Shown here one piece after another: positions 8,570 to 25,730 of a DNA stretch of 44,444 bases. How positions within the stretch are numbered: the stretch's first letter is position 1; each line of letters opens with the position of its first letter. A program made the position numbers and the translations under genes. The stretch lies in the IMG/VR virus record IMGVR_UViG_3300028025_004664, positions 1 to 44,444 of that record. One strand, 5' to 3'. The notes below the pieces were generated by a model. It was given only the letters and a program-made list of their open reading frames with translations. It ran no database searches and was not told where the DNA came from. This DNA comes from a virus.

Positions 8570-8851
8570 ATGCCATTAACAGACTTTGACAAAGTTATGA
8601 AAGAATACCAAAATCTAGATGATGATTTTGGTTTCTCTGCTGTATCTGAAGAAGAATACAATTCAGTAATCAACAAGACAGCTGAGACTGCTGATGATTA
8701 CAAACAACGTTTAATGGAAGTGGAGAAGATGATTGTCCCTTTCCTAAACAAACTACATAGTACAGGTGATAAGGAATACATCTACTGGCCTAACCGTAAA
8801 CCTGCAATTGAAAAACAAATAGAGAAGATATTAAAACTGACTAGAGGTTGA
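8570..8851 (+). CDS. Small conserved phage protein
   Basis: A 93-residue charged, mainly helical protein two bases downstream of the preceding gene. It begins with an acidic F-D-x-V-M-x-E-Y stretch and ends with a well conserved G-D-K-E-Y-I-Y-W-P-N-R-K-P-A-I-E-K-Q-I segment, a signature I associate with small proteins near replication genes of marine T4-like phages. No catalytic motif or membrane span is visible. It is probably co-transcribed with the gene at 7830. Confidence 0.75.
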   Translation: MPLTDFDKVMKEYQNLDDDFGFSAVSEEEYNSVINKTAETADDYKQRLMEVEKMIVPFLNKLHSTGDKEYIYWPNRKPAIEKQIEKILKLTRG

Positions 8852-8853
8852 TA

Positions 8854-10409: not shown

Positions 10410-10972
10410 TGAGTGATACAATTACATTTAATACAGAAACACAAGCATTCGGAATGCAAAGACCAAAATGTTCGGGTTACGGACTTGGTGCCATGATTGC
10501 AAAGATGGAGAAACCACAAGTACTAGAAATCGGTTGTGATATTGGTGATACAACACAATTTTTATTGGATAGTAATCCAACTTGTGTTTTACTTGGTATT
10601 GATCCATATGAAAACTATATTGATTGGAATGGAAACAATCTAAATGAACGTGAAGTTGTTTATGACAAATTTATATCTCGTTTGGATGGTTATTCTAATC
10701 GTTTTGATTTGATACGTGACTATTCCGATAACTGTGTTGATAATGTTGAAGATAACCATTTTGATTTAATCTTTATTGATGGTTTACATACTTACGACCA
10801 GTTGACAAAAGACTGTGCCAACTATTATTACAAATTAAAAGAAGGTGGCATCTTTGCTGGTCATGATTACAATGCCATTCCGGGTGTTCGTAAAGCTGCT
10901 GATGAATTTGCAGCGAAAGTTGGTAGAGAAATTCATTTTACAGAGTGTGACGTTTGGTACTGGATTAAATGA
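10406..10972 (+). CDS. SAM-dependent methyltransferase (class I)
   Basis: A 188-residue Rossmann methyltransferase. Motif I is LEIGCDIGDTT at about residues 40-50, a post-I acidic segment GIDPYENY follows, and motif IV is LIFIDGLHTYDQ. The end (G-G-I-F-A-G-H-D-Y) is characteristic of the Methyltransf_24 group, often found in polysaccharide and cephalosporin-hydroxylase-like clusters. ATG codons at 10406 and 10409 are both possible starts. It overlaps its neighbours by four bases on both sides. In this context it probably methylates a sugar or glycan intermediate; this is inferred from neighbours. Confidence 0.85.
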   Translation: MMSDTITFNTETQAFGMQRPKCSGYGLGAMIAKMEKPQVLEIGCDIGDTTQFLLDSNPTCVLLGIDPYENYIDWNGNNLNEREVVYDKFISRLDGYSNRFDLIRDYSDNCVDNVEDNHFDLIFIDGLHTYDQLTKDCANYYYKLKEGGIFAGHDYNAIPGVRKAADEFAAKVGREIHFTECDVWYWIK

Positions 10973-11646
10973 AGATAGCAATATGTTTTTTTGGTGTATT
11001 GCACGGTGAAGTTGGCAGACCTTATGATGTAAGGCACTGTTGGCCAAATCTATCTCGTATGGTTGCTGAACCTTTTAAAGAAGAACATCAGGTTGATATT
11101 TTATTATCAACTTATAAAGTCGATGATGAGATGATTGAAAAAGAAATCTATGATATGATTAATCCGAATCATGTACAAATTTCCAATATACAAAATTCTA
11201 ATTCTAAGACGACTAAATTGGCTACGTTCAAATTGTTGGAAAATAAAGATTATGATTTTGTTATAATGACAAGAACTGACCTTCATTTTTCGGAAGTATT
11301 AATAGATAAGATAGATTATGATAAATTTAATTTTTTATTCCACGAAAGTGGCCGTAAAAAAGAAAGTTTAACTTGTGATAATTTTTACGCATGGCCATAT
11401 AAATTTACCGAACAGGTTAAGAAATCATTTGAAGAATGTCCTAAGATAAATGACCACGATACACATAAATTGTTCGAATCATTATCAAAAAATATTTCCA
11501 CCGATGACATACACTATATTGCCGGTGAAGAAGAATATTATAGTGATGTGAATAAGTATTTTACAATATGTAAAGTATTCTCAAATAGTAGAATAGAACA
11601 TGGTCTACATGAAGAAGTGATGGAAAGGTTTAATATTAAAAAATGA
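10969..11646 (+). CDS. Glycosyltransferase-like protein, paralogue 1 of 3
   Basis: A 225-residue protein with a start K-I-A-I-C-F-F-G and a central MTRTDLHF (R102, T103, D104). The same plan, a first strand ending in C-F-x-G or L-S-G followed about 100 residues later by an arginine and [TY]D motif after a hydrophobic strand, recurs in the next two genes. This pattern is seen in GT-A-like proteins of phages and capsule loci, where the aspartate would bind the nucleotide sugar. It is joined to its neighbours by four-base overlaps. Activity and substrate are not demonstrated. Confidence 0.65.
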   Translation: MKIAICFFGVLHGEVGRPYDVRHCWPNLSRMVAEPFKEEHQVDILLSTYKVDDEMIEKEIYDMINPNHVQISNIQNSNSKTTKLATFKLLENKDYDFVIMTRTDLHFSEVLIDKIDYDKFNFLFHESGRKKESLTCDNFYAWPYKFTEQVKKSFEECPKINDHDTHKLFESLSKNISTDDIHYIAGEEEYYSDVNKYFTICKVFSNSRIEHGLHEEVMERFNIKK

Positions 11647-12332
11647 AAGATTGTATAGTATTATCAGGTCAATATAGGACCTTTGACGAAACATGGGGAA
11701 ATATCAAACAATTCATTGAGTTAAATGATTTGGATGTTTATTGCCATTTATGGTCTACAGATGAAAATGAAATTGAAAATGTTCGTGATAGATTAAATCC
11801 AATTAAATTCTTACATGAAAATTACAAAGATTATGTGGATGTATTTGATGGTATAGATGAACGAATTCGTATGACACATCCAAAAGGGCCTAATCAAGAC
11901 AAATTGGCTGGCAACGCATCAATGAACTTTGGTCGTAAACAGGCCTTCAATCTAGTTGATAAAGAATATCGTAATTTGATTTATTGTAGGTATGATATAT
12001 CCTTTAATCCTGTTTTCAAATTCGATTATATTGATTGCCTTTTAACACCATTAGAAGAATCGTACAATCTAATTTCGGATATTTTTGCCATTATGCCGTT
12101 TAGTGATGCAAAGCATTATTTCATTTATAATGAATATGAAAGATTACATTCGACACAATTTGAAACAGAGTTTGAAAATTATTTGAGAAATGTTAGAATG
12201 TATGGTGATGAAAATATAAGAATACACAAATATGAGAGATACTGTCCACACATGATGTTATTGCGTAATATATACATGAACAACATAAAGAATGTTGCAA
12301 CAAATCAACTTACAGTATCCTTACGCCGATGA
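11643..12332 (+). CDS. Glycosyltransferase-like protein, paralogue 2 of 3
   Basis: A 229-residue protein beginning C-I-V-L-S-G-Q-Y-R-T-F and carrying the central Y-C-R-Y-D-I-S-F motif (R116, Y117, D118). The start strand, the Q-x-R after it and the R-x-D position match the neighbours at 10969 and 12329, indicating tandem duplication followed by divergence. An H-L-W-S segment after a D-V-Y-C strand matches the I-H-T-W of the next paralogue. It overlaps both neighbours by four bases. Confidence 0.65.
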   Translation: MKDCIVLSGQYRTFDETWGNIKQFIELNDLDVYCHLWSTDENEIENVRDRLNPIKFLHENYKDYVDVFDGIDERIRMTHPKGPNQDKLAGNASMNFGRKQAFNLVDKEYRNLIYCRYDISFNPVFKFDYIDCLLTPLEESYNLISDIFAIMPFSDAKHYFIYNEYERLHSTQFETEFENYLRNVRMYGDENIRIHKYERYCPHMMLLRNIYMNNIKNVATNQLTVSLRR

Positions 12333-13006
12333 AAATAGCATTATGTTTTGCTGGCCAAGCCAGAAGTTTTGAAAAAGGTTATGAATATTACAAGCGTAAT
12401 CTTTTTGACCATTATGATGTGGATGTATACATTCATACATGGAAGTTTTTGAAACAAAATGATTTGGTTGCATTATATAAGCCAAAGGCTTGTGAGTTTG
12501 AAATACCACCACAAGGCGATTACAACTCAAAATATACCAATACACCAAATGCCCAAAAATATCCTCCAAAAAATACATACAATCAATTCTATTCACTCTA
12601 TCATGTTAATCAATTGATTCAAGGGGAGTATGATTGGGTTATTCGGAGTAGAACCGATTATGCTTTAAATACATTCATTCCTTTTTCAGAATTGGATAAT
12701 ACCAAGTTGTATATACCAAATTGTCGAATGGTACCAGAAAGAGATTTTGGCAATGACCAGTTTGCTTTTGGTTCACAAGAAACTATGATAAAATATATGT
12801 CAACGTTTGTCAATGGTGATAAGTATTATTATGCTGGAACACAATTTATTGGTGAAGATTTGATGAGAGCCAATTTACATGAACACAATTTACATGGTGA
12901 AAATCTTGTTTATGTTGATATGAATAATCCTTTTCCTCCAGGTCCACATAATGGCACATGGCATTCTTTGATACGAGATGATGTTGACCAATGGAACAAA
13001 TTATAA
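12329..13006 (+). CDS. Glycosyltransferase-like protein, paralogue 3 of 3
   Basis: A 225-residue protein with K-I-A-L-C-F-A-G-Q-A-R-S-F at the start, D-V-Y-I-H-T-W in the second strand and W-V-I-R-S-R-T-D-Y (R108, T109, D110) at the putative active site. It shows the clearest version of the motif plan shared with the two preceding genes. A Q-F-A-F-G-S segment follows, similar to the acceptor loop of capsular transferases. It overlaps the kinase-like gene by 16 bases. Function is inferred from motif plan and cassette context. Confidence 0.7.
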   Translation: MKIALCFAGQARSFEKGYEYYKRNLFDHYDVDVYIHTWKFLKQNDLVALYKPKACEFEIPPQGDYNSKYTNTPNAQKYPPKNTYNQFYSLYHVNQLIQGEYDWVIRSRTDYALNTFIPFSELDNTKLYIPNCRMVPERDFGNDQFAFGSQETMIKYMSTFVNGDKYYYAGTQFIGEDLMRANLHEHNLHGENLVYVDMNNPFPPGPHNGTWHSLIRDDVDQWNKL

Positions 13007-13743
13007 AAGAACTTAAAGGACATTCAGGTGCTCAGATTTTTTTAATGAAAAATGAAAGTGGTCTTTTTGTTCGTAAAACAGATAATATAGAAAGAAATAT
13101 AGAACGATTGACCGTATTACATAGTGTTGGTTATCCTGTTCCTACTATTTACAGTCATACAAAAACTCAAGTTGATATGCAGTACATACATGGTTTAGAT
13201 ATGAAAACATATTTGACACACAATAATATTGGTGATTTGTCAAAGTTTATTATTGCGACATTCAAAGCATTTTCATCCGAATCTATTGAAAAGGATTATA
13301 CCGAAACATATCATCAAAAGTTGAAATGGTTGGAATCAAATACAGATTTACCTTTTACTAAAGATGAATTGATAGATAAACTTCCAAAATTATTACCATC
13401 ATCAATATATCATGGTGACTTGACTTTAGAAAACATCATACATTCAGATAGTGGATTCTACATGATTGATCCAGTAACAACTGATTATGATTCATATATT
13501 TTTGATATTGGTAAAATGAGACAAGATATGGAGTGTAAATGGTTCTTACGTGGAACTGACATTATGTTGGACACCAAACTACAACAATTACAGGACACAA
13601 TCAAAGAATCTTTTCCATATGCGTTTGATGATTCTATATTGATTGTAATGTTACTGAGAGTATTATCACATTGTCAAAAAGGTGATGATGATTATAAATT
13701 TTTAATGAAGAATATAAAAAAATTATGGGAGAATTTGAAATGA
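12991..13743 (+). CDS. APH / choline-kinase-like phosphotransferase
   Basis: A 250-residue small-molecule kinase of the aminoglycoside phosphotransferase fold. The Brenner motif Y-H-G-D-L-T-L-E-N (H141, D143, N148) supplies the catalytic base and metal ligand, and M-I-D-P-V with D160 is the DFG-like metal site. The N-lobe is short. It is directly followed, in an ATGA overlap, by a nucleotidyltransferase. The kinase-plus-nucleotidyltransferase order matches LicA-LicC (choline phosphorylation, then CDP-choline synthesis) and other capsule-decoration pathways. I infer that it phosphorylates a small alcohol, amino-alcohol or sugar destined for nucleotide activation; the substrate cannot be read from sequence. 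Confidence 0.8.
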   Translation: MEQIIKELKGHSGAQIFLMKNESGLFVRKTDNIERNIERLTVLHSVGYPVPTIYSHTKTQVDMQYIHGLDMKTYLTHNNIGDLSKFIIATFKAFSSESIEKDYTETYHQKLKWLESNTDLPFTKDELIDKLPKLLPSSIYHGDLTLENIIHSDSGFYMIDPVTTDYDSYIFDIGKMRQDMECKWFLRGTDIMLDTKLQQLQDTIKESFPYAFDDSILIVMLLRVLSHCQKGDDDYKFLMKNIKKLWENLK

Positions 13744-14768
13744 GAGTAATTGTACCAGCAGCTGGATTGTCAACACGGTTTCCTGATATGAAACCGAAAT
13801 ATCTTCTTTATGATTACAAACATGAATTGATGATTGCCAATTCTATCAGACCATTTTTACGTGAAGGTTATAAAGTTACAATTGGTATACTTAAAGAACA
13901 CGATGAGAAATATAATGCAACACAATTTATCAATTATGAATTTGGTGATTCTGTAGATGTTGTTGTTCTGGATGTACCCACAAAAGGTCCTGCTGATACA
14001 GTGTTTCAGATTATTGAAAAACTTGGTCTATACTCAGAACCAATATTCATCAAAGACTGTGATAGTTTCTTTGAACATGATATCTCAGAAGGCAATTATG
14101 TCTGTGTTTCTAAAATATCAGACCATGAGTTTCTAAAGAAAATTGCTTCTAAGAGTTTTACTGTGGCCAACAATCAAGGTATAATCACCGACATTGTAGA
14201 AAAAGAAGTAGTATCAGATACATTCTGTGTTGGTGGTTACAAGTTCTCATCCGCTTTGATGTACAAAGAAGCCTTTAAACGATTGAGTAGTGAACGTGAA
14301 GTCTTTGTTTCGGATGTAATTAGTGTTTGTATTGGTGATATGAATATCTTCAATGAGAAGAAAGTACGTGATTATACTGATGTTGGCACGGCACAAGATT
14401 GGTTTGAATATAACGACAAACCTGTAATCTTCTGTGATATTGATGGTACAATCATTATCAACCAAGGTCGAGTTGGTACTAACAGTTATACGGACAAACC
14501 TATACCACTAGAAAAAAATATCAAAAGACTTCTGGAACTACAAGACAAAGGTGCTCAGTTTGTTTTTACTACAGCAAGAAAGAATGAACACAAAGCACTA
14601 ACAAGAGATATGTTATATGATTTGGGATTCAAAAGTTTTGATTTGATTACTGGACTACAGAATTCAAGACGTATTTTGATTAATGATTACAATGAAGCTA
14701 ATCCATTTCCGAGAGCAGAATCAGTCAATATCAGAAGAAACTCAGACAATCTAAGTGACTTTCTATGA
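13740..14768 (+). CDS. Nucleotidyltransferase-HAD fusion protein
   Basis: A bifunctional protein of about 342 residues. Residues 1-225 form a sugar-phosphate or phosphocholine nucleotidyltransferase: V-I-V-P-A-A-G-L-S-T-R-F (3-14) with the K-P-K-Y motif (18-21), then K-D-C-D-S for the metal site. Residues 228-340 form a HAD-superfamily domain with F-C-D-I-D-G-T (D233, D235) and a later F-T-T-A-R. The ATG at 13740 is preferred (GGGAG just upstream, ATGA overlap with the kinase) over the in-frame ATG at 13725. A transferase fused to a phosphatase or kinase-like HAD domain suggests one polypeptide that processes a phosphorylated intermediate and activates it as CDP or NDP. Substrate is unknown. 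Confidence 0.85.
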   Translation: MRVIVPAAGLSTRFPDMKPKYLLYDYKHELMIANSIRPFLREGYKVTIGILKEHDEKYNATQFINYEFGDSVDVVVLDVPTKGPADTVFQIIEKLGLYSEPIFIKDCDSFFEHDISEGNYVCVSKISDHEFLKKIASKSFTVANNQGIITDIVEKEVVSDTFCVGGYKFSSALMYKEAFKRLSSEREVFVSDVISVCIGDMNIFNEKKVRDYTDVGTAQDWFEYNDKPVIFCDIDGTIIINQGRVGTNSYTDKPIPLEKNIKRLLELQDKGAQFVFTTARKNEHKALTRDMLYDLGFKSFDLITGLQNSRRILINDYNEANPFPRAESVNIRRNSDNLSDFL

Positions 14769-15495: not shown

Positions 15496-15503
15496 TATAA
15501 ATA
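15496..15503 (+). promoter_or_regulatory. T4-type late promoter TATAAATA
   Basis: A perfect TATAAATA octamer lies 46 bases upstream of the ATG at 15550 in a 110-base intergenic region (15440-15549). It matches the T4 late promoter consensus recognised by a gp55-type sigma factor with the sliding clamp. It marks the start of the block of putative internal head proteins. Nothing else is evident in this intergenic region apart from an AAGGG ribosome binding site. Confidence 0.8.
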
Positions 15504-15549: not shown

Positions 15550-16743
15550 ATGTTGACATTTAAATCATTCCTAACAGAAGAATCCGAAGGTTCGGAACTT
15601 AAGCACATTCACCATGCGGAAGACCGTCCTTTGATGCACGGACATGCAGGTTTCGAACACGCACATGAAGCACTAATGAAGGCTCATGCTCATATGACTT
15701 CTGGTGCAAATAGTAGTAACTTGACTATGAAATATGATGGTTCTCCATCTCTTGTCTTTGGTCATCATCCTAAGAATGGTAAGTTCTTTGTTGCAACTAA
15801 GTCTGCTTTCAATAAAGATCCAAAAATTAATCACACAGAAAAAGATATTGACCGAAACCACGGTCACTCACCTGGTCTGGCAAAGACACTTAAGCACGCA
15901 TTGAAACATCTACCAAAAGTTACACCTAAGACTGGTGTTTACCAAGGTGATTTGATGCACCATGCAGAAACCAAACACCTACATGAAGGTGTTATATTAG
16001 AAGCAAAAGGTAGTAAAGTATCATTCACACCAAATACAATCACTTATACACCTAAAAGTAAAGAAGATGTTGATAAAATAAAAAGGTCTAAAGTTGGTAT
16101 TGTAGTTCATCAGAAATATAGTGATGACATGAAAAGTGCTTCACCTCATGTTGACCACCAAAACTTTAAAGAACATCCAGATGTTCATATACATGGTGCA
16201 GAACATGACACCAGTAAAGTTAAACATTCAGCAGAGAACGAAAAGAAATTCCAGTCTCACATGGCTGCCGCCAAAGAAATCCATGATACACATGGTCACA
16301 AAATGTATGATGCAGTTCACCACAAACATGGTGGTGAATCTGGCCACTTATCTACATACATCAATAAAACTGTAAGACACGATGAAGTTCCGTCTGTTAA
16401 GGGTTTCAAAGAACATATAAAAGATGTGCACGAAAAACAGGCTGCCAAAGTTAAAACAGATAAAGCCAAGGCAGAAAAAACTAGTGAAGGCAATTCACAA
16501 ATTGCTCACATCGAAAAGAATAAATCTCATTATGGAAATTTGTTTGCAATGCACCATCACTTACACCAAGCCAAGAATGCTTTGGTGAATTCTTTGGAAA
16601 CACATGAAGGTCGTTACGAACACCACATTGAAGGTAAGAAATCTAAACCAGAAGGTTTTGTTGTACACCACGATAATCAACCAACTAAATTAGTTAATCG
16701 TGCTGAATTTGCTAAACAAAATTTGTTAAAGGTAAGAAAATGA
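15550..16743 (+). CDS. Ligase-fold nucleotidyltransferase-like protein with capsid-targeting-like N-terminus
   Basis: A 397-residue, histidine-rich basic protein. The first ten residues (MLTFKSFLTE) match the pattern of the T4 internal-protein capsid-targeting sequence with an [LI]-x-E cleavage site at 8-10. The body carries the signature of covalent nucleotidyltransferases: K61-Y-D-G64 (motif I, adenylated lysine), V-Y-Q-G-D around 130-134 (motif III-like), P-E-G-F-V-V with E368 (motif IV) and K380-L-V-N-R (motif V). Between motifs III and IV is a long His/Lys-rich insertion. This architecture is widespread in marine T4-like phages and usually left as a domain of unknown function (I believe DUF6267). 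A DNA or RNA end-joining or capping role is inferred. It is the first gene after the late promoter. Confidence 0.8.
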   Translation: MLTFKSFLTEESEGSELKHIHHAEDRPLMHGHAGFEHAHEALMKAHAHMTSGANSSNLTMKYDGSPSLVFGHHPKNGKFFVATKSAFNKDPKINHTEKDIDRNHGHSPGLAKTLKHALKHLPKVTPKTGVYQGDLMHHAETKHLHEGVILEAKGSKVSFTPNTITYTPKSKEDVDKIKRSKVGIVVHQKYSDDMKSASPHVDHQNFKEHPDVHIHGAEHDTSKVKHSAENEKKFQSHMAAAKEIHDTHGHKMYDAVHHKHGGESGHLSTYINKTVRHDEVPSVKGFKEHIKDVHEKQAAKVKTDKAKAEKTSEGNSQIAHIEKNKSHYGNLFAMHHHLHQAKNALVNSLETHEGRYEHHIEGKKSKPEGFVVHHDNQPTKLVNRAEFAKQNLLKVRK

Positions 16744-17516
16744 AGGGCTTTAAAAGTTGGATATCAGAAGAAATAAAAAAAGGTAATATCACTTTTTATC
16801 ATCCATCTAAGGGTTTATATAAAATGACTCACCATGCAGATGATAATGTTTATCATCTTCATAATAAATTTGGTGATTTGACACATACTTTTTCTGGACA
16901 TATGTCACCAGAAGATGTAAAGCAAGAATTGAAAAAAAATCATGAAATGGTTTTAATAGATAAATTACATGAAGAATTAATTACAGAATTAAAGAAACCC
17001 ACTTTATCTGACGAACATAAAGCAAATGTTGCAGCTGCCAAAAAAGAATCTAGAGCAATCAATAACAGTCGTGGTGGTTATAATGAAACACAATTAGCTA
17101 AACATTTAAATGGTGGAAAATATATTGATAAACAACACGAAACGGAAGATAAACACCACAAATCTGTATTGAGTGCTCATGACAAAAAACACGGTACACA
17201 AGAAGTAAAAAATCAACAAGTTAGAGCAAAAGAACAAGCTCATGTGTTTCATGAACATGCAAAGAAAAAAGGTTATGAAGGTGTACATGAAGTGCATTTA
17301 ACATCAAAACCTGGAGATATTGAAAGAAAAACAGGAATTAAAGCTACTCAACAAGAAAATCCAACAGATGTTGCTGTTAAATTTCATAAAAAACCAAAAA
17401 ATGCTGAACATCCTTACCTGGGTATCTCAGCAAAATCTAGCAAATCTAGTGCTATTGGATTCCACAATGGTGGAACACAAGAAGTTGGTAACTTTTTAAC
17501 GAAGCATTTAGGATAA
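16740..17516 (+). CDS. PD-(D/E)XK-like protein, N-terminal part of a split gene, with capsid-targeting-like N-terminus
   Basis: A 258-residue His/Lys-rich protein overlapping the previous gene by four bases. The N-terminus MKGFKSWISE has the shared targeting pattern with I-S-E at 8-10. Near the C-terminus is N-P-T-D-V-A-V-K-F, then L-G-I-S-A-K-S-S-K-S-S, which fits the D...(E/S)-x-K core of PD-(D/E)XK nucleases. The TAA at 17514-17516 is followed after one codon by the ATG of the next gene in the same frame. Related phage proteins, as I remember them, continue without a break from the S-x-K-S motif into the region encoded by the next gene. I therefore read the two as halves of one ancestral gene. 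Nuclease activity is inferred only. Confidence 0.72.
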   Translation: MKGFKSWISEEIKKGNITFYHPSKGLYKMTHHADDNVYHLHNKFGDLTHTFSGHMSPEDVKQELKKNHEMVLIDKLHEELITELKKPTLSDEHKANVAAAKKESRAINNSRGGYNETQLAKHLNGGKYIDKQHETEDKHHKSVLSAHDKKHGTQEVKNQQVRAKEQAHVFHEHAKKKGYEGVHEVHLTSKPGDIERKTGIKATQQENPTDVAVKFHKKPKNAEHPYLGISAKSSKSSAIGFHNGGTQEVGNFLTKHLG

Positions 17517-17519
17517 AAA

Positions 17520-18131
17520 ATGAGCGAAGATAAAAAAATTAGTGAATATGATATTCACGGCCACGTAAACCAGCGTCACCAAGAATTTATGGATAAACAT
17601 AAACTTGGTACAAATAAAGCTGCGGCTATTAGAAACATCAAAGGACCTAAACACCTAGACGATGCTAAAAAAATATTAAATCCACTTTATAAGACAAGCG
17701 CCACTTATCACAAAGGTGTTGAACATTCAAAACAAATTAATACCGAAGTCAGAGATAAGTTACATAAAGGCTATTCCGAAATGGCTAAATCACACCATGA
17801 AGAATTGAAACATCACATTTTACATACCTACATAAAAGGTAATTCAAAACATGCTTTGCCTTATGTAAAAGTTCATGGCCAAGGTGGTTATGACCATGAA
17901 TCTGATACACATAAGCCTGTACACGCACACGCAACAGATCCATCAGATAATGAAATGTATCACAAGGTTAGAAATGCACATCATTTGTCTTTCCACAAAT
18001 CCGGCCAAGGTAATATAACTGTTAAAGCACATGAACATAAAAATGATGAACACGGTAAAAAAGTTATGAGTTTACAAGTTAAACATGTGAATGGCCCATT
18101 AACTGGAGTAAGTGTTCTTGCAGGACATTAA
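17520..18131 (+). CDS. C-terminal part of split PD-(D/E)XK-like protein
   Basis: A 203-residue histidine-rich basic protein in the same frame as the preceding gene, separated from it by TAA and one AAA codon. It has its own ribosome binding site (AGGA at 17510-17513, six bases before the ATG), so it is translated independently. The sequence R-H-Q-E-F-M-D-K-H-K-L-G-T-N-K-A-A-A-I-R and the later P-Y-V-K-V-H-G-Q-G-G resemble the C-terminal region of large single-chain phage proteins whose N-terminal region carries the S-x-K-S motif. No catalytic motif is visible here alone. It may bind the upstream product to form a two-subunit enzyme. Confidence 0.68.
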   Translation: MSEDKKISEYDIHGHVNQRHQEFMDKHKLGTNKAAAIRNIKGPKHLDDAKKILNPLYKTSATYHKGVEHSKQINTEVRDKLHKGYSEMAKSHHEELKHHILHTYIKGNSKHALPYVKVHGQGGYDHESDTHKPVHAHATDPSDNEMYHKVRNAHHLSFHKSGQGNITVKAHEHKNDEHGKKVMSLQVKHVNGPLTGVSVLAGH

Positions 18132-18134
18132 AAT

Positions 18135-19931
18135 ATGAAATCATTTTTAGATATATTACAAGAAGAAAAGGGTGGTGAAAAGCACCATGTCTTTACTTTT
18201 GGTAGAATGAATCCGCCTACAACCGGACACTTGAAGTTAATTGATAAGGTTAAAGATGTTGCTGCAAAACATAATGCAACACATACTGTTGTTACTTCTC
18301 ATTCCCAAGACACAAAGAAGAATCCTTTGTCCGCTTCTGAAAAAGTTAAACACCTAAAGAGATATTCTCCAGGTACTAATTTTCAAGCATCTTCAAAAGA
18401 ACATCCTTCATTTTTACATCATGCAGCTGAACTACACAAAAAAGGTGTAACACATCTTCACATGGTAGTTGGTTCTGACCGTGTACACGAAATGAAAACT
18501 ACATTAAACAAATATAATGGACCACATGAAGGTGCATTGTATAACTTTAAAAAGATTCATGTTCATTCTGCTGGTCACCGTGATCCGGACGCAGAGGGAA
18601 CAGAGGGTATGTCTGGCACCAAGATGCGTGAACATGCCAAGAACAAAGACCTCTCAAAGTTCAAACAAGGTGTTCCTAGTCATGTTTCTGGTGCTCATGT
18701 GAAAGAATTGATGCATGATACTCGCAAAGGCATGGGACTAAACGAATCACACAATCGTGGTGTTTTTAAAGCCATCTTTGTGACAGGTGGACCAGGTTCT
18801 GGTAAAGATGTTATCATTCGTGAAGCAATTGCTGAATCAAGAGCAGTAGAGTTGAATTCAGTACAGGCTTTTGATTATCTGATGGACAAACAGAAGTTGG
18901 CTGAAAAGACCAGTGACTTCCGTAGAGAAGCAATTAGAAATCGTGGACCGTTAATCATTAATGGTCCTGCCGATGACCATTCACGTATCATTACAATCAA
19001 AGAAGAACTGGAAGAACTTGGTTACGAAACAATTATGATATTTGTTAATACTACAGACCAAGCAAGCCAAGAAAGAAACCAACGTTTGACAAAGATGGTT
19101 TCTGAATCAATCAGACGAGAAAAGTGGGAATTGGCACAATCTTGTAAAGAATCTTACGTTCAAAATTTTGATAACTTCATATATTTTGACAATAGTTCAG
19201 GAATTGAATCTATTGAGGAAGATATTACTGAGACCTATGGAAAAATAAATACATTCATAGACAGTAAAAACTATGGCGAAATTTCTTATTCGTGGTTGGA
19301 AAATCATGGTAGACTGAATGCCAATGAACCATTTAATTATTTTAAGGAAAATTATTATGCTAAAAACAGTACTAGATTGGTTGAAGCTAAAACCAAAACA
19401 CCAAGAATCCACAGTTCAGGAGGCCCAAAAGCCGATGGACCAGACGATATCAGTCCCGACAATAGAGCCAGTGACGCCAATGCCGGAGATATCAAGTGGA
19501 ACGGAGGTAAAAAGCGAGGAAGTTATATCTTCAAAACCTACAGTGAAGAAAACAAGAACCCCAAAATCGAAATCCACCCCAGCCCTAAAGAAAGTAACTT
19601 CTCCAAAGACAAAGAAAAAGTAAATAAGAAGAGGTTTTCCGATGTTCCTACAGTAAGCCAAAGACTTAGAAATGTAACGACCATCGGACAAGAATTTGAT
19701 ACACGCCAACAGGGAACAGTATACCCTATGTCTGGTCTAGGCGATGTAACATATAGAGAACAAGTAGACTTTAAGAATTTCAGAAGTAAGGTTAAAGAAG
19801 CAATTGACGATCCAGGTGCCATCGACATGGGTGTTGCAGGTGTTTTGAGTGGCGCTGGAAATAAAGAACCTATGCAATCTTATAAAGACCCCGACAGAAA
19901 TGTCACCATAATTAAAAAGAAAAAGAAATGA
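18135..19931 (+). CDS. NMN-adenylyltransferase-like / P-loop kinase fusion with capsid-targeting-like N-terminus
   Basis: A 598-residue multidomain protein. Residues 1-10 (MKSFLDILQE) fit the shared targeting signal with L-Q-E at 8-10. Residues 17-190 are a cytidylyltransferase-like domain: F-G-R-M-N-P-P-T-T-G-H (TxGH at 29-32) and M-S-G-T-K-M-R (160-165), as in NMN and pantetheine adenylyltransferases. Residues 210-395 are a P-loop domain with G-G-P-G-S-G-K-D (218-225). The remaining 200 residues are low-complexity, rich in K, P, D and G, and contain a possible prohead-protease site (L415-V-E417). The adenylyltransferase-then-kinase order recalls NadR, which makes NAD from nicotinamide riboside; the actual substrate is uncertain. 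Phage homologues are often labelled cytitidyltransferase. Confidence 0.82.
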   Translation: MKSFLDILQEEKGGEKHHVFTFGRMNPPTTGHLKLIDKVKDVAAKHNATHTVVTSHSQDTKKNPLSASEKVKHLKRYSPGTNFQASSKEHPSFLHHAAELHKKGVTHLHMVVGSDRVHEMKTTLNKYNGPHEGALYNFKKIHVHSAGHRDPDAEGTEGMSGTKMREHAKNKDLSKFKQGVPSHVSGAHVKELMHDTRKGMGLNESHNRGVFKAIFVTGGPGSGKDVIIREAIAESRAVELNSVQAFDYLMDKQKLAEKTSDFRREAIRNRGPLIINGPADDHSRIITIKEELEELGYETIMIFVNTTDQASQERNQRLTKMVSESIRREKWELAQSCKESYVQNFDNFIYFDNSSGIESIEEDITETYGKINTFIDSKNYGEISYSWLENHGRLNANEPFNYFKENYYAKNSTRLVEAKTKTPRIHSSGGPKADGPDDISPDNRASDANAGDIKWNGGKKRGSYIFKTYSEENKNPKIEIHPSPKESNFSKDKEKVNKKRFSDVPTVSQRLRNVTTIGQEFDTRQQGTVYPMSGLGDVTYREQVDFKNFRSKVKEAIDDPGAIDMGVAGVLSGAGNKEPMQSYKDPDRNVTIIKKKKK

Positions 19932-20410
19932 AATCTTTCAAACAATTTTTAGATGAAGCGAATGCTCAAACAATACAACAAGACGCCGAAGAAATTAAGC
20001 GTCAGAAAAAATATTTAGCTGATAAAGCTCAAGAGTATAAAGACCAGGCCGAAAGAGAAAAAATGTATGGCCATGGTGGTGCAGCTGAAGCAAAAGGCGA
20101 AACATTCGAATTAGCATCTAAAAATATTGAAGAATCTTCACCAGCATGGCAACGTTCTGCTGGAAAAGATCCAGAGGGTGGCTTAAATAGAAAAGGTATT
20201 GCTTCTTATCGTAGAGAAAATCCAGGTTCTAAACTTTCAATGGCTGTTACAACAAAGCCATCTAAATTAAAACCAGGAAGTAAAGCTGCAAATAGAAGAA
20301 AGTCATTTTGTGCCAGAATGTCTGGTATGAAAAAGAGATTAACGTCTGCTAAGACAGCTAATGATCCTGATTCAAGAATCAATAAATCGTTGAGAAAATG
20401 GAATTGTTGA
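19928..20410 (+). CDS. Basic DUF6321-like protein with capsid-targeting-like N-terminus
   Basis: A 160-residue protein beginning MKSFKQFLDEA, the closest match here to the T4 internal-protein signal (L-D-E at 8-10, then A). A charged helical region (20-60) is followed by a strongly conserved basic C-terminal domain: S-P-A-W-Q-R-S-A-G-K-D-P-E-G-G-L-N then K-G, R-R-E-N-P-G-S-K-L, and R-R-K-S-F-C-A-R-M-S-G-M-K ending in K-W-N-C. I associate this domain with DUF6321, shared by marine phages. The basic charge suggests DNA binding in the head. The last codons (K-W-N-C) form the left copy of a direct repeat flanking the HNH gene that follows. Confidence 0.82.
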   Translation: MKSFKQFLDEANAQTIQQDAEEIKRQKKYLADKAQEYKDQAEREKMYGHGGAAEAKGETFELASKNIEESSPAWQRSAGKDPEGGLNRKGIASYRRENPGSKLSMAVTTKPSKLKPGSKAANRRKSFCARMSGMKKRLTSAKTANDPDSRINKSLRKWNC

Positions 20411-20827
20411 TGCCTGCACCTAGCAAAAAACCAAATGAACAAGGTAAATATGAGTGTAGCATGTGCCATACTTGGAAATTACCAGAAAATTTTAATAAGA
20501 ATAAGAAACAAAAATCCGGATTAAGTTACGCTTGTAGAAAATGTACAACAGAACATACAAGAAAATTTAATCTACCATCTAAATATAATATTACAGTCGC
20601 AAGATATGCTGAAATGTTATTGGAACAAGGTTGTAAATGTGGTTGTTGTGGAATGAGTTTTGAAATTGAGGGTAAACAAATCAATAGGCCTCATGTTGAC
20701 CACAACCACAAAACTGGAGAAGTTAGAAATTTACTTTGTGGAAATTGTAATCTTGCTGCTGGTAAAGTTAAAGATAGTTCTGCTTTTGCGGAACAATTAG
20801 TCAATTATTTGAAAAAATGGAATTGTT
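20390..20827 (+). repeat. Direct repeats flanking an HNH endonuclease gene
   Basis: Two 19-base direct repeats at 20390-20408 (TTGAGAAAATGGAATTGTT) and 20809-20827 (TTGAAAAAATGGAATTGTT) differ at one position and lie 419 bases apart. Each encodes the last codons of a gene ending K-W-N-C. The left copy ends the basic protein at 19928, and the right copy ends the HNH gene. This is the pattern expected if the endonuclease gene inserted at the end of the upstream gene and rebuilt its 3' end. Confidence 0.8.
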
Positions 20828-20829
20828 AA
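20410..20829 (+). CDS. HNH endonuclease VII-like (putative homing endonuclease)
   Basis: A protein of about 139 residues of the endonuclease VII (His-Me finger) type. Zinc-ligand pairs are visible: C-S-M-C and C-R-K-C near the N-terminus, then C-G-C-C and C-G-N-C around the active site. The core H-V-D-H-N-H-K-T-G-E-V-R-N-L-L-C is the His-Me signature. The ATG at 20410 overlaps the stop of the preceding gene (TGATG); an in-frame ATG at 20398 would add M-E-L-L from the repeat. T4 gp49 of this family resolves Holliday junctions, but the small size, extra N-terminal zinc pair and flanking direct repeats favour a free-standing mobile endonuclease. Confidence 0.88.
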   Translation: MPAPSKKPNEQGKYECSMCHTWKLPENFNKNKKQKSGLSYACRKCTTEHTRKFNLPSKYNITVARYAEMLLEQGCKCGCCGMSFEIEGKQINRPHVDHNHKTGEVRNLLCGNCNLAAGKVKDSSAFAEQLVNYLKKWNC

Positions 20830-20842
20830 ACGGAGAACAACA

Positions 20843-21709
20843 ATGATAAATTTAAAGAAAAACGATCCAGTTGCTGATGCAGTTAGAGGCATTATGGAAA
20901 AAGAACTGGTGGGCAATCAACATAAGATTGACAAAAATAAAAATAATAGGATTGATCCAGAAGATTTTAAGATTCTTCGTGGTGAAAAGAAAGCTGTCAA
21001 AGAAGAAGAAACAGTTGAAGAAAATGCTTTTGATTATAAAAGTCCTCGTCCAATAGAACCAAGGGGTGGTTCTGGTGTAAAACAAGGTTCACGTTATGGT
21101 GGTTCTAAACAAAAAGAAAAACCAGAACAAGAAGAACCAAAAGAAAAGAAAGAAGAAACTTCTTACTTTAAAGAACGCTTAATCGAAAGAGCAATGTTGA
21201 AAATGGCTGCTAAGAAAGCCTTCAAAGCATTGACTGGTGGTTCTGATGAGGACCAACGTAAAGACCTACAACGTAAGATGGGTGTGCCACAAACTGGTCA
21301 GAAACCAACTCAAAAAGAAGAAGTTGAACAAATTGATGAACTATCAAAATCAACTTTAGGTTCTTATGTAAAAGGTGCAGCAAGAGATGTTGATGTTTCT
21401 CGTAAACTTAGTGCTGACTTTGAAAATAAGGCAAATAAGTCTAGAAATGCTAGCACAAAGACAGCAAATTCTAGTATTTCCAAAAGATTCAATGACATAG
21501 CCAAAAAACGTCAGGCCGGCATCGGCCAAGCAGTCGAACGTTTAACAAAAGAAGAAAATGAGTTAGATGAAGTTGCACCTCCAGGTTTTGAAGGTACAGT
21601 TAAAGCCATGAAGAAGTACAAGAAGATTGATAATCCATTTGCACTTGCATGGTCAATGAAGAACAAGGGTTATAAGTCACACAAAAAGGCAGATGGTTCC
21701 GATAAATGA
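20843..21709 (+). CDS. Putative internal or structural protein with EF-hand-like loop
   Basis: A 288-residue charged protein with an AACGGAGAACAAC leader and good spacing. Near residues 30-42 is D-K-N-K-N-N-R-I-D-P-E-D-F, an EF-hand-type calcium loop. Residues 159-167 carry E-E-V-E-Q-I-D-E-L, a motif also present in the protein at 21888, and residues 241-244 read L-D-E-V; both fit the [LI]-x-E specificity of a T4-type prohead protease. The C-terminus (P-P-G-F-E-G-T-V-K-A-M-K, F-A-L-A-W-S-M-K-N-K-G-Y) is a conserved module in marine phage proteins. Lack of membrane or catalytic motifs and its place in the late block suggest a head core or internal protein. Confidence 0.75.
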   Translation: MINLKKNDPVADAVRGIMEKELVGNQHKIDKNKNNRIDPEDFKILRGEKKAVKEEETVEENAFDYKSPRPIEPRGGSGVKQGSRYGGSKQKEKPEQEEPKEKKEETSYFKERLIERAMLKMAAKKAFKALTGGSDEDQRKDLQRKMGVPQTGQKPTQKEEVEQIDELSKSTLGSYVKGAARDVDVSRKLSADFENKANKSRNASTKTANSSISKRFNDIAKKRQAGIGQAVERLTKEENELDEVAPPGFEGTVKAMKKYKKIDNPFALAWSMKNKGYKSHKKADGSDK

Positions 21710-21891
21710 AAACATTTAAGGAATTTAAATCATATGTGGTAGAAGGTCGTCCACCGACAACTCAGATGGACGAACCTTTTATTACTGATGCAGAAAATAA
21801 ACCTTTGAATTATGCAAAAGATTTGGCTACTAAATCTTTAAAAAAAATCAAAAGTGATATGACTGGTAAAGAAACTAAGGTAGAAAAATGA
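21706..21891 (+). CDS. Small protein with capsid-targeting-like N-terminus
   Basis: A 61-residue protein in ATGA overlap with both neighbours. It begins MKTFKEFKSYVVEG. The first seven residues match the shared signal, and the possible cleavage position is shifted to V-V-E at 11-13, followed by G. The rest is charged, with a lysine-rich end. Small size and position suggest a packaged internal peptide or core component. No other feature is recognisable. Confidence 0.65.
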   Translation: MKTFKEFKSYVVEGRPPTTQMDEPFITDAENKPLNYAKDLATKSLKKIKSDMTGKETKVEK

Positions 21892-23540
21892 GTACTAAAT
21901 CAGATTTACTAAAATCAATTATCAAAAATCCGTCCGATATTATGGAAGATGCTGCTCTAGACAAATATCTATTGTCAAAGGGTATTAATCCAAAGTTTGC
22001 AACCAAAGACCAAAAGGTTGCACATTCTAAGACGAATGCTTTTATTACTTGGAAAAACAGTAGAGTAATAGAAGATACATTAGATGAGGCAGTTGATAAA
22101 AGAGATACTGTTACAATGGATATTCCTTTGTTGATTCGTGTTTTGGAATTATCCAGAGAAACAATCAAATCTGATATGGATTTACACCGTGTTGTGGAGA
22201 AGTTGATTAATATACGTAAAAAAGGTATGTTGACAATGAAAGATTACAATTACATTGCTAAAATTCATGAAGATATTATGTCGCAAATATCTACAGATGT
22301 TATTGAAGAAGCAATGAAAACACCAAAAGACGAAAAAGAATGGGATAAAGTAGCTCAGACTCGTTCTGAAATTTGGCGTAGAAAACAACTCAAGAAAATT
22401 GACGAGAACCATATTGCTGTTGCCATGGGTAGAGAAATAGACGATGAAGGCAGTATGATTATGAATCAGTTGGATCAGATGGATCGTTCTATCAACATGA
22501 TGCGTGGTGTGGTGAAAGATCCAAATATGCAGATTCCTGCTTGGGTTCAATCGAAAGTAACTTTAGCTGCTGATTACATTGAAACAGTTGCTAGTTATAT
22601 GTCCAGTAAAAATGAAGAATCTTCTCATGATCCTTGGAGAGACAAACATTTTGGTCCAACTAAAATAGTTAAACAAAAATATCATGTTAAGACTGACACT
22701 AAGTCATATAATGTTAAAGCAGATAATGAAGAACACGCACATAAACTGGTAACTAAACATGCTCCTGGTTCTAAGATTGTTTCTATTGAACACAAAGGTC
22801 GCATAATGGAAGAAGTCGAACAAATTGATGAAATTTCAACTGATGGATACTACAAAGCTGCTAACAAGAGCAGACTAGATGCAGCTGTTAAAGTAGCATC
22901 TAGCATGGGTGCTGATAAGCAAGCAAGAACAAAGTTAGATGCTCGTAACAGAGGCCTTAAAAGACTAAGTGATAGAACATCAGCTGAAATGAAAAAGGCA
23001 AACTCTGGTCCACAATTACCACCACCAGAACATAAACCTCCTACTGAAGCTGAACGCCGTGGTTATGGACAAGGTCGTTACATGGGTGATTCTGTTGAAC
23101 ACGATGAATCATTGGTAGAAGCACAATCTGCTGCAATTAGATTCCAAAAAGCATTACAAAATGCTAAAAAGAAACGTGAAGAAGAAGAAAAAAGAAATGC
23201 AGAAAATGCCAAACGGGCTCTTACACCAAAACCTGTAACAGAAAGTAGAATGTCTGGATTATCCAAATCTGCTCGTATGATTAAATCAATCTACAAGAAA
23301 AAGGGCATGAAAGAAGAAATGTACGACCACGAAAAAGAAGATAAGTCTGTGGCAACATATGGTAAAAAACCAAAAATGGTAACAGTCAAAAAAGAAGCTA
23401 GTTTCGGAGAAAAAGTTCCTGGAGCAGCTGCTGTACTAAAAGGTGGAACAACATTAACGGGTCAACCTAGAGATACAGTTGAAATTGACCCGACCATGAG
23501 AAAGCGTCCTGGACCTGATAACACTGGCAGAAACAAATAA
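21888..23540 (+). CDS. Large putative internal or core protein with repeated protease-site motifs
   Basis: A 550-residue, charged, mostly helical protein. Residues 1-250 include a conserved D-K-Y-L-L-S-K-G-I-N-P-K-F-A-T-K segment and a D-Q-M-D-R-S-I-N-M-M then I-P-A-W-V-Q-S-K segment found in marine T4-like virion proteins. About 255-305 looks like a small alpha/beta module. M-E-E-V-E-Q-I-D-E-I follows at 307-316, nearly identical to the motif in the protein at 20843. Candidate prohead-protease sites [LI]-x-E occur at L65-D-E67 then A, I313-D-E315 then I, and L409-V-E411 then A. They would cut the chain into four fragments near domain borders. The tail is K/E-rich and disordered. It is probably a head core or internal polyprotein. 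Confidence 0.72.
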   Translation: MSTKSDLLKSIIKNPSDIMEDAALDKYLLSKGINPKFATKDQKVAHSKTNAFITWKNSRVIEDTLDEAVDKRDTVTMDIPLLIRVLELSRETIKSDMDLHRVVEKLINIRKKGMLTMKDYNYIAKIHEDIMSQISTDVIEEAMKTPKDEKEWDKVAQTRSEIWRRKQLKKIDENHIAVAMGREIDDEGSMIMNQLDQMDRSINMMRGVVKDPNMQIPAWVQSKVTLAADYIETVASYMSSKNEESSHDPWRDKHFGPTKIVKQKYHVKTDTKSYNVKADNEEHAHKLVTKHAPGSKIVSIEHKGRIMEEVEQIDEISTDGYYKAANKSRLDAAVKVASSMGADKQARTKLDARNRGLKRLSDRTSAEMKKANSGPQLPPPEHKPPTEAERRGYGQGRYMGDSVEHDESLVEAQSAAIRFQKALQNAKKKREEEEKRNAENAKRALTPKPVTESRMSGLSKSARMIKSIYKKKGMKEEMYDHEKEDKSVATYGKKPKMVTVKKEASFGEKVPGAAAVLKGGTTLTGQPRDTVEIDPTMRKRPGPDNTGRNK

Positions 23541-23548
23541 GATAAATA
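23541..23548 (+). promoter_or_regulatory. Late promoter motif GATAAATA
   Basis: GATAAATA directly follows the stop codon of the core protein gene and lies 31 bases upstream of the ATG at 23580. It is followed by a strong AAGGAG ribosome binding site (23568-23573). The motif, strong leader and downstream terminator mark the single virion gene at 23580 as highly expressed late. Confidence 0.65.
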
Positions 23549-23579
23549 CAACATAACCCTCGGTTAAAAGGAGAATAAA

Positions 23580-24449
23580 ATGTCATCTTGGGGAAATAAC
23601 GATAACGCAGCTAACGCACCTTACTGGGCTGTTGAGACAGTAGTTTCAACAAATGCGCCGACTGCATCCGCACCAACAGCTGCAAACGTTGCATTGCTGT
23701 ATGGTAATACACAATTCCAGGCATATACACAAAATATGACTGTTGGATTGTTCTTGGTAGATGCTATTGAAACCACTTCTGGTGGTGATAATGTAGTAGA
23801 TATCTCATTGTCAAATCAAGGTTCTGGATATGTTGAAGCACCAGGTGTAACAATTGCATCTAGTGGTGGTGCATATAGTGCAAGTGCAACCGCCAGTATT
23901 GCTGCTGGTAAAGTAAGTAATATAGCAGTTGCAAACACAGGTGTTGGTTACACATCAGATCCAGCGGTTACAATTCAAGTTCCCGTTCTAACTGTTCCAA
24001 CAGCTACAGTTATTGCAGCCAACGATACTATTATGTACACAGGTCACGGCCAAGCAAACGGTGCCGCACTGGTATTTAATTGGGGTGGTACTGCAAACAT
24101 CACTGGTTTGTTAAATGGTACAACATACTTCACTGCACCACTTGATGCAAACAGATTTCAATTGTCAACTACTGCCGCCAACGCAGCTAATGCCGTTGTA
24201 ATCAATCTAACCAGCACTGGTGAAACTGGCCAATTCTTTACTATTGTTGATGGTGTACGTGCAACAGCGGTTGCAAGTCGTGGTTTAAGTCAAAGTGTTG
24301 GTGGTGCAGAACATGCAACACATATTGGTTGGAACTTGAAAACAGTTGGTTCAGGTGGCCGTGCAGGTCGTGTTCAGTATGAAACACTAGTTGCTTTGGC
24401 AAATCCAATTGGTGACGGTTCAGACGATATTTCTTTACCTGACGCTTAA
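23580..24449 (+). CDS. Virion structural protein with GSGY beta repeats
   Basis: A 289-residue protein that is rich in A, G, T, V and N and poor in charge, as expected of a surface-exposed virion protein. It begins M-S-S-W-G-N-N-D-N-A. Two copies of a repeat, N-x-G-[SV]-G-Y-[VT]-x-x-P-x-V-T-I, occur near residues 78-92 and 120-135, linked by alternating small-residue strands. This GSGY repeat occurs in fibre-like and decoration proteins of marine phages. The C-terminus carries H-I-G-W-N-L-K-T-V-G-S-G-G-R-A-G-R. It has its own late promoter, an excellent ribosome binding site and a terminator, so it is probably abundant. Head decoration, neck or fibre roles are all possible. Confidence 0.8.
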   Translation: MSSWGNNDNAANAPYWAVETVVSTNAPTASAPTAANVALLYGNTQFQAYTQNMTVGLFLVDAIETTSGGDNVVDISLSNQGSGYVEAPGVTIASSGGAYSASATASIAAGKVSNIAVANTGVGYTSDPAVTIQVPVLTVPTATVIAANDTIMYTGHGQANGAALVFNWGGTANITGLLNGTTYFTAPLDANRFQLSTTAANAANAVVINLTSTGETGQFFTIVDGVRATAVASRGLSQSVGGAEHATHIGWNLKTVGSGGRAGRVQYETLVALANPIGDGSDDISLPDA

Positions 24450-24453
24450 TAAA

Positions 24454-24478
24454 AAGGGGCTTCGGCCCCTTCTTTAAT
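24454..24478 (+). terminator. Rho-independent terminator
   Basis: A perfect GC-rich hairpin, GGGGC (56-60 of 24456) with loop TTCG and GCCCC, is extended by AA/TT pairs and followed by a T-rich tail (CTTTAATAT). It starts five bases after the stop codon of the structural gene at 23580 and is the strongest terminator in the window. Confidence 0.92.
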
Positions 24479-24865
24479 ATGTTTGATGATTTGAATGAAG
24501 AAAACTTTATGATGTATGCAGTCAAATGCTATACCTCACCCCATTGTATTATGTCGGAATTTGAAGGAGACATTAAAAGAACAAAATACCTGAAAAGGTT
24601 ATTTCGTAGATATAAGGTCACCAAAACAATCAAAGAAAGACTTATTCTAAATCACATCATTTTATTGAATAATGTTTTTGGTTCAGAAGCAACAGCAAGA
24701 ATATTGTTCTATAAGACTGATGAACGAGATTATGATATTTTGAAAACATTTTTATCATACTTAAATATTGCACCAGATATGGTGTATGGCATAAGGGGTA
24801 AAAATATTTTAGTTTCAAGAATACCATTGGATGAAAATGTCACAGAGATATTACTAAAAATATGA
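24479..24865 (+). CDS. Conserved phage protein (DUF7207-like)
   Basis: A 128-residue protein just after the terminator. It contains M-M-Y-A-V-K-C-Y, then R-T-K-Y-L-K-R-L-F-R-R-Y, and L-I-L-N-H-I-I-L-L-N-N-V-F-G, a very recognisable combination in T4-like marine phages, probably the family called DUF7207. No ribosome binding site is evident before the ATG at 24479. An internal ATG pair at 24509 and 24512, which begins the conserved M-M-Y-A-V motif, could be the real start. It overlaps the next gene by four bases. Function is unknown. Confidence 0.75.
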   Translation: MFDDLNEENFMMYAVKCYTSPHCIMSEFEGDIKRTKYLKRLFRRYKVTKTIKERLILNHIILLNNVFGSEATARILFYKTDERDYDILKTFLSYLNIAPDMVYGIRGKNILVSRIPLDENVTEILLKI

Positions 24866-25365
24866 AAACACTCAAACAATACTTAGATGAAAAAGGAAGA
24901 TGCTGGCCAGGTCATAAACCTGTACCAGGTAAAAAGCCTTATTCTCCAGGTAGTTGTAAAAAAGAGGACCATGTAAGAGAATTGGAAAGTGGTTTAAAAC
25001 AATTAGATAGTCACAGTTATGATACTATCAATAAATTAATGATGAAAATATCCAAAGAACATGGTATAACAGGTAAAGAATTACACAACGATTTCAAATC
25101 CAAACATGGAAAAACTCCTGATGACTGGATCAATGAAGATTTGAGACAATGGTTCAGGCAAAAGTGGGTTCGTATGGACACCAAAGGAAACATTAAAGGT
25201 GACTGTGCTCGTGAACCAGGAGAAGGCAAGCCAAAATGTCTTCCACAAGCAAAAGCACATTCACTAGGTAAAGAGGGAAGAGCTTCAGCGGCACGAAGAA
25301 AACGTAGAGAAGATCCGAATCCAGAACGCAGAGGCAAACCAATATTTGTTAGGACAAAGAAATGA
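24862..25365 (+). CDS. Basic conserved protein with capsid-targeting-like N-terminus
   Basis: A 167-residue protein beginning MKTLKQYLDEK (L-D-E at 8-10). A short Cys-containing segment (G-R-C-W-P-G) is followed by a helical middle. The strongly conserved basic domain has R-Q-W-F-R-Q-K-W-V-R-M-D, then G-D-C-A-R-E-P-G, K-C-L-P-Q-A-K-A-H and A-A-R-R-K-R-R-E-D-P-N-P then R-R-G-K-P. This last domain also occurs in proteins of large eukaryotic viruses and many phages; its function is unknown. The four conserved cysteines suggest a small zinc-binding or structural domain. Its signal and basic charge support packaging with DNA. Confidence 0.78.
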   Translation: MKTLKQYLDEKGRCWPGHKPVPGKKPYSPGSCKKEDHVRELESGLKQLDSHSYDTINKLMMKISKEHGITGKELHNDFKSKHGKTPDDWINEDLRQWFRQKWVRMDTKGNIKGDCAREPGEGKPKCLPQAKAHSLGKEGRASAARRKRREDPNPERRGKPIFVRTKK

Positions 25366-25730
25366 AATCATTTAAAAAATTTACCGAAGAATATTTGAAC
25401 GAAAAGAATGTGCCAACAAGTCCTGAAAAATGGGCTAGAGCTAAAGCAGCTGCAAAATCTAAATTTGCTGTATATCCATCAGCATACGCCAATGGTTGGG
25501 CTTCTAAGAAATATAAAGCTATGGGTGGTGGTTGGAGAGCAACATCAGAAGAAGTTGTAAAAGAAGATGGTATGGGTGGAGGTGCCATGAGTGCTGCACC
25601 GACCAATACTGTTGGTGCTGGAAACGTTGCTGGAACTGGCGGCCAAGGTGGTGAACCTGGTGTCAATCCAAAAAAGAAAAAAGGTCCTGTACTAATACAG
25701 ATGGCCAAACGTAATACACCAAAGATGTAA
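25362..25730 (+). CDS. Small protein with SAYANGWA motif and capsid-targeting-like N-terminus
   Basis: A 122-residue protein beginning MKSFKKFTEEYLNEK. The signal is slightly altered: position 8 is T, and an L-N-E site lies at 12-14. A conserved helical motif follows: W-A-R-A-K-A-A-A-K-S-K-F-A-V-Y-P-S-A-Y-A then N-G-W-A-S-K-K-Y-K. It is known from phages and giant viruses (I believe DUF5872). The C-terminal part is glycine-rich and lysine-rich. It overlaps the preceding gene by four bases and ends the block of targeted proteins. Function is unknown; internal head location is inferred from the signal. Confidence 0.75.
   Translation: MKSFKKFTEEYLNEKNVPTSPEKWARAKAAAKSKFAVYPSAYANGWASKKYKAMGGGWRATSEEVVKEDGMGGGAMSAAPTNTVGAGNVAGTGGQGGEPGVNPKKKKGPVLIQMAKRNTPKM

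Follow-up and report, generated by a model that had tools for sequence, protein, structure and literature searches.

T4-type N-terminal tags on seven proteins of one gene block in a T4-like phage fragment: a probable set of packaged cargo proteins

Introduction

In the IMG/VR virus record IMGVR_UViG_3300028025_004664, analysed here over its whole length of 44,444 bases (the window), seven proteins of one gene block begin almost alike although their bodies are unrelated, and the question that this locus raises is what such a common start does for so diverse a group. The answer reached below is that the seven are, in all likelihood, packaged cargo of a T4-like phage, each carrying a capsid-targeting sequence (CTS) of the T4 type, and that the phage probably uses this tag to single out a group of enzymes which the virus particle carries within it. 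The window holds T4-like replication genes (DNA polymerase, UvsX, helicase, primase, NrdA and NrdB), and Pelagibacter phage HTVC008M, the nearest named phage as judged by the protein starting at 18135, has a similar gene block between primase-helicase and primase. The best explanation takes the phage of the window to be T4-like and related to the Kyanoviridae.

Results

The seven N-terminal tags

All seven open reading frames (ORFs) begin where the initial annotation had placed them, with the N-termini it described, and the late promoter that it had proposed ahead of the block is present. These features, named hereafter by the start of their gene, are:

15496..15503, + strand, T4-type late promoter TATAAATA, 54 bases upstream of the first tagged gene
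15550..15579, + strand, tag 1, MLTFKSFLTE; F4 and E10 invariant or nearly so in 26–29 homologues; cut predicted after E10
16740..16769, + strand, tag 2, MKGFKSWISE; F4 and E10 both invariant in its family
18135..18164, + strand, tag 3, MKSFLDILQE; M1 and K2 invariant in its family, F4 and E10 both at least 90%
19928..19957, + strand, tag 4, MKSFKQFLDE; from the ORF start
21706..21744, + strand, tag 5, MKTFKEFKSYVVE, IPI-like; from the ORF start and comparison with T4 IPI
24862..24891, + strand, tag 6, MKTLKQYLDE; from the ORF start
25362..25403, + strand, tag 7, MKSFKKFTEEYLNE, IPI-like; from the ORF start and comparison with T4 IPI

The motif [LI]xE stands at residues 8–10 in five of the seven, and in the remaining two it takes the form of VVE at residues 11–13 (21706) and LNE at 12–14 (25362), all as first described. 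The T4 start MKTYQEFIAE with which they had been compared is indeed that of IPIII, and also of IPII, in the T4 record; it is not that of IPI, which begins MKTFKEFTSTTTPVSTITEA, a long form that 21706 and 25362 resemble in their later site. The two apparent exceptions thus match the IPI form, and the corrected reference therefore strengthens the case. As for what characterizes a CTS, the hydrophobic or aromatic positions 4 and 7 are occupied in all seven (F or L at 4; F, W, Y or I at 7), and a gp21 site of the type [LI]xE ends between residues 10 and 19, the VVE of 21706 being a relaxed form. The codons differ among the seven tags, and the claim of unrelated bodies holds, since an all-against-all BLASTP comparison of the seven gave a best match of E=0.02 (18 residues, 19928 against 24862).

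Of the 68 gene starts of the window, 5 fit a strict form of the motif. In T4-like loci it is found at 172 of 3,621 gene starts against 5 of 17,269 internal methionines of the same proteins, and a looser form at 235 of 3,621 gene starts against 0 of 928 in T7-like control loci (GC content 40%), the motif having been derived from the seven proteins and the gene-start counts being inflated by related loci that repeat each other. The number of families, 21 out of 1,260 clusters (T4 IPII and IPIII being two of the 21), is a fairer measure, because homologues repeat across related loci. These families are clusters, and single linkage fused several window proteins via shared modules; a stricter coverage rule split some of the fused clusters and left 19928, 20843, 21888 and 24862 joined. 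The first strict motif missed HTVC008M because the tags of that phage are of the delayed kind, and Endonuclease VII (20398), which has no tag, was excluded from the set.

Residues F4 and E10 are conserved across three cargo families, two of which have members down to 28–33% identity. In the family of 15550 (DUF6267), E10 is invariant and F4 reaches at least 90% over 29 sequences with identity down to 28%, and both are invariant in a set of 26 sequences. Mutagenesis in T4 assigned residues 4 and 7 mainly to targeting and residues 8 and 10 to processing, and a change to D10 blocked cutting and kept targeting (reviewed in PMC9026906). Two homologues of 18135 (L191:10001-11803 and L192:3912-5714) carry D10, in MKKFLEKVQDD, which is the cut-blocking change of T4. 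The structure model of the DUF6267 protein, for which three rows were removed from the alignment, has a predicted local distance difference test score (pLDDT) of about 45 at residues 1–20 and above 90 directly after, and we count this in favor of a targeting tag.

The promoter and the protease point the same way. Of 119 relatives, 94 have TATAAATA no more than 120 bases ahead of the first gene, in almost every case at 50–58 bases; among all genes the share is 4.9%. An S77 (gp21-type) protease was found in all 10 long relatives searched and in six of eight further phage records, being absent from P-SSP7 and from S-CBWM1, whose NMNAT-like frame also has no tag.

Tagged proteins in published virions

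In cyanophage S-CREM2, with 52 virion proteins and 221 annotated features taken as the gene count (PMC10665884), five ORFs (6, 13, 14, 136 and 154) begin, as annotated, with a T4-spaced tag, and every one of them was detected in virions (hypergeometric P=6e-4); ORF6 is an S-adenosylmethionine (SAM) hydrolase, ORF14 a kinase, and ORF154 a cytidylyltransferase homologous to 18135. The Cas9 of this phage (ORF12, L377 4705-7314), also found in virions, has a tag shifted inward, MTSRWSNWSTGSDKKPLRFASFMAEAA; g128 of S-CRM01 has an extension similar to that of this Cas9. The homologues of 18135 in S-CREM2, S-SCSM1 and S-SZBM1 are all tagged and all virion proteins, the NMNAT of S-SCSM1 virions beginning MKSFLQFLKE and the cytidylyltransferase of S-SZBM1 virions MRFRQFIIEA, while an untagged DUF6267 neighbor of the latter is undetected in virions. 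A Ser/Thr kinase is reported from the virions of S-CRM01, in which the protein annotated as such begins MISFDQFLSE. For S-CREM2, S-SCSM1 and S-SZBM1 together, the virion lists include 6 of the 8 proteins with T4-spaced tags (P=1e-3), namely 5/5, 1/2 and 0/1, respectively. In the open-access text, the cyanophage virion papers report these proteins and do not mention a targeting tag, nor did we find a paper that does.

The cargo and its neighbors

The tagged proteins and the untagged proteins with sites in the same block are:

15550..16743, + strand, cargo 1, DUF6267, 397 amino acids; Pfam PF19782, 1.4e-95; invariant KxDG...EGxV motifs
16740..17516, + strand, cargo 2, basic, 258 amino acids; no Pfam match, weak phrog_9632
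17520..18131, + strand, untagged neighbor, basic, 203 amino acids, with ISE at residues 7–9
18135..19931, + strand, cargo 3, NadD-like adenylyltransferase, polynucleotide-kinase-like P-loop kinase and low-confidence tail; PF01467, 2.5e-7, and PDB fold matches
19928..20410, + strand, cargo 4, basic, with C-terminal DUF6321 module; PF19846, 4.3e-19
20843..21709, + strand, untagged protein of the block that may be a packaged polyprotein, its STLGSY and APPG modules being preceded by EEVEQIDE and LDE sites
21706..21891, + strand, cargo 5, 61 amino acids; from the ORF list
21888..23540, + strand, untagged block protein with internal IDE, LVE and VTE sites
24862..25365, + strand, cargo 6, CWPG and DLRxWF modules, very basic; phrog_727, phrog_10346
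25362..25730, + strand, cargo 7, DUF5872-like and DGMGGG modules; PF19197, 0.0048 (below cut-off), phrog_27331

Of the labels first given to the bodies, that of adenylyltransferase-kinase stands for 18135, where PF01467 (CTP_transf_like) is above the cut-off and the PDB folds match NadD and the polynucleotide kinase of C. thermocellum, and so does that of basic domains; the ligase fold of 15550 and the PD-(D/E)XK fold of 16740 were not confirmed. For 16740 no Pfam profile matched, a sequence-profile miss that does not exclude the fold. For 15550 the fold search with the model gave no significant match, and a PDB sequence search with the DUF6267 and 18135 family queries gave nothing useful; K61, D63, G64, E368, G369 and V371 are invariant in the alignment, and the KxDG and EGxV motifs that they form suggest a possible nucleotidyl transferase or ligase. 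The relatives have a further tagged protein with a match to a polynucleotide-kinase family. A role of the cargo in nucleic-acid repair, or one related to nicotinamide adenine dinucleotide (NAD), on entry would be a guess.

Further genes of the window lie beside this set. The untagged protein at 23580-24449, which begins MSSWGNNDNAANAPYW, matches virion and baseplate families, and S-SCSM1_95 and S-SZBM1_136, virion proteins of the same block in those phages, have starts somewhat like it. Within this coding sequence, on the same strand, ARAGORN called a tRNA-Asn at 24210-24303, probably a false call. At 24479-24865 there is a DUF7207 protein without a tag, and block proteins that look DUF7207-like (S-CREM2 ORF159, S-SCSM1 ORF96 and S-SZBM1 ORF135) do not figure among the listed virion proteins. 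Upstream of the tagged block, a cluster at 8848-14768 has weak matches to glycosyltransferases and sugar metabolism.

Internal sites at module borders

A number of cargo modules are found both right after N-terminal tags and within longer proteins, and both times they start just past [LIVM]xE. The internal sites in the block are:

20126..20134, + strand, IEE in 19928, just before the DUF6321 module (SSPAWQR)
21332..21340, + strand, IDE (EEVEQIDE) in 20843, before the STLGSY module
21563..21571, + strand, LDE in 20843, before the APPGFEG module
22824..22832, + strand, IDE (EEVEQIDE) in 21888
25129..25137, + strand, INE in 24862, exactly before the DLRQWF module
25557..25565, + strand, VKE in 25362, exactly before the DGMGGG module; a similar module lies behind N-terminal tags in L088 and L026

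DUF5872 follows [LIVM]xE without a gap in 10/10 N-terminal and 19/19 internal contexts (background 2%), DLRxWF in 9/12 and 22/25, respectively, and STLGSY in 16/16 distinct internal contexts, where the background of [LIVM]xE at a module border is 2–4% per border; for the APPG modules the site stands one residue ahead in the 8/8 contexts shown, and the linkers differ. The motif around EEVEQIDE occurs 204 times against 16 in shuffled proteins, and in one pair of borders, MKTFQEFINE followed by DLRKWF (N-terminal, L194) and EEVETVEE followed by DLRKWF (internal, L011), the equivalence is direct. Because homologous linkers inflate them, these counts are evidence for a module border and not yet for a cut.

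Discussion

If T4 is taken as the model, the tagged protein would be directed by its residues 4 and 7 to the prohead core, where a gp21-type (S77) protease would then cut after [LIV]xE, that is, after E10, or after E13 or E14 in the IPI-like forms; the cut would free the mature enzyme inside the head, and the freed enzyme would be expected to enter the cell along with the DNA. The modular tag that the initial annotation had read in these proteins finds support in the S-CREM2 virion proteome, the tagged virion homologues of 18135, the protease of the long relatives and the conserved promoter. Packaging is well supported by tagged homologues in the virions of other T4-like phages; for this particular, uncultured phage we infer it, and cleavage and injection would follow the T4 model.

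Several observations weigh against this. About one third of the 18135 homologues fall outside the motif used, for example by their residue 7 or 10, and HTVC008M has delayed forms only, without a T4-spaced tag. A search for the protease with PF03420 gave no match in the 44-kb fragment, a result that such a fragment cannot decide. In S-CREM2, ORF30 (MNFKKWFKE), whose tag is one residue shorter, is off the virion list, and including it changes the count to 5/6 (P=0.003); the authors state that co-purified contaminants cannot be excluded (PMC10665884). SCSM1_30 (L379 716-1036) and SZBM1_191, which form one family by their shared tag and SVNISGDFNG body, are tagged but absent from both virion lists.

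An alternative is that the tagged proteins are components of the prohead core or scaffold, in which case the tag would join them to the core and gp21 would destroy or trim them, with no delivery of enzymes to the host. In T4, gp21 breaks core proteins such as gp22 and gp67 down into multiple pieces, and [LI]xE sites lie near the N-termini of core proteins; here, some of the cargo modules are likewise of small size and basic, and many sites are in untagged block proteins. However, conserved enzymes such as the adenylyltransferase-kinase of the window, or the SAM hydrolase, kinase and Cas9 of S-CREM2, are unexpected in a scaffold, and the S-CREM2 enzymes persist in purified virions; we regard this alternative as unlikely. 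More improbable still is that the N-terminus serves another purpose, such as loading of the tail or baseplate, attachment to a membrane, translation or stability, its likeness to the T4 tag being convergence; no cleavage has been observed so far and one tagged family escaped detection in the published virions, but the conservation of E10 and of residues 4 and 7 agrees with the T4 mutagenesis, module borders fall at the site, and none of the T7-like control starts has the motif. Chance or a compositional feature is practically negligible as an explanation: MK, F and K-rich protein starts are common in AT-rich genomes and the GC content of the window is 35.7%, but the internal methionines, the T7-like loci and the differing codons of the seven tags already contradict it.

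Returning to the targeting tag, the internal sites allow a further proposal, which we hold evenly in the balance: that heads are loaded with modular polyproteins, in which the tag at the front would deliver the chain and a gp21-type protease would cut it at the [LIVM]xE of each border, often EEVEQIDE. If so, one gene could supply several separate cargo proteins, and modules could shuffle freely between genes. What is new here is that the same modules stand in some proteins behind a tag at the N-terminus and in others behind [LIVM]xE within the chain, and that some of the cargo and its block neighbors may be polyproteins.

The 10-residue rule may predict from sequence alone which proteins enter the cell together with the DNA of T4-like phages of aquatic bacteria. 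It also offers an explanation for the virion NMNAT, SAM hydrolase, kinase and Cas9 of cyanophages, reported without a packaging mechanism, and the long-open role of T4-type internal proteins becomes testable in many phages.

Among known systems, the closest is that of the T4 internal proteins IPI, IPII and IPIII, which share the start M-x-x-F/Y-x-x-F-[LI]-x-E, the short and long (IPI-like) forms, the gp21-type protease (here in relatives) and the T4-type late promoter; unlike T4, with three small internal proteins, at least seven tagged proteins, enzymes included, lie here in one block, and about 19 tagged clusters exist beyond the two of T4 among the loci clustered. This clustering found no homology of the bodies to those of T4, IPII and IPIII being singletons and IPI being in no listed tagged cluster. 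The virion enzymes of cyanophages (NMNAT/cytidylyltransferase, SAM hydrolase, APH-like kinase, Cas9) are alike in the tagged 18135 homologue of S-CREM2, S-SCSM1 and S-SZBM1, and the block of S-SZBM1 is placed, as in the window, between primase-helicase and primase/NrdA, that of S-SCSM1 before primase/NrdA. The ejection proteins of the giant phage SPN3US are likewise reported to be packaged with the genome, some being cut by a prohead protease during head assembly. The polyvalent proteins of phages and plasmids are also multidomain, and for many of them packaging in the capsid and injection are predicted; embedded peptidases are described as freeing their domains (PMC5512222), whereas here gp21-type [LIVM]xE sites stand at the borders and modules are exchanged between stand-alone tagged genes and fusions.

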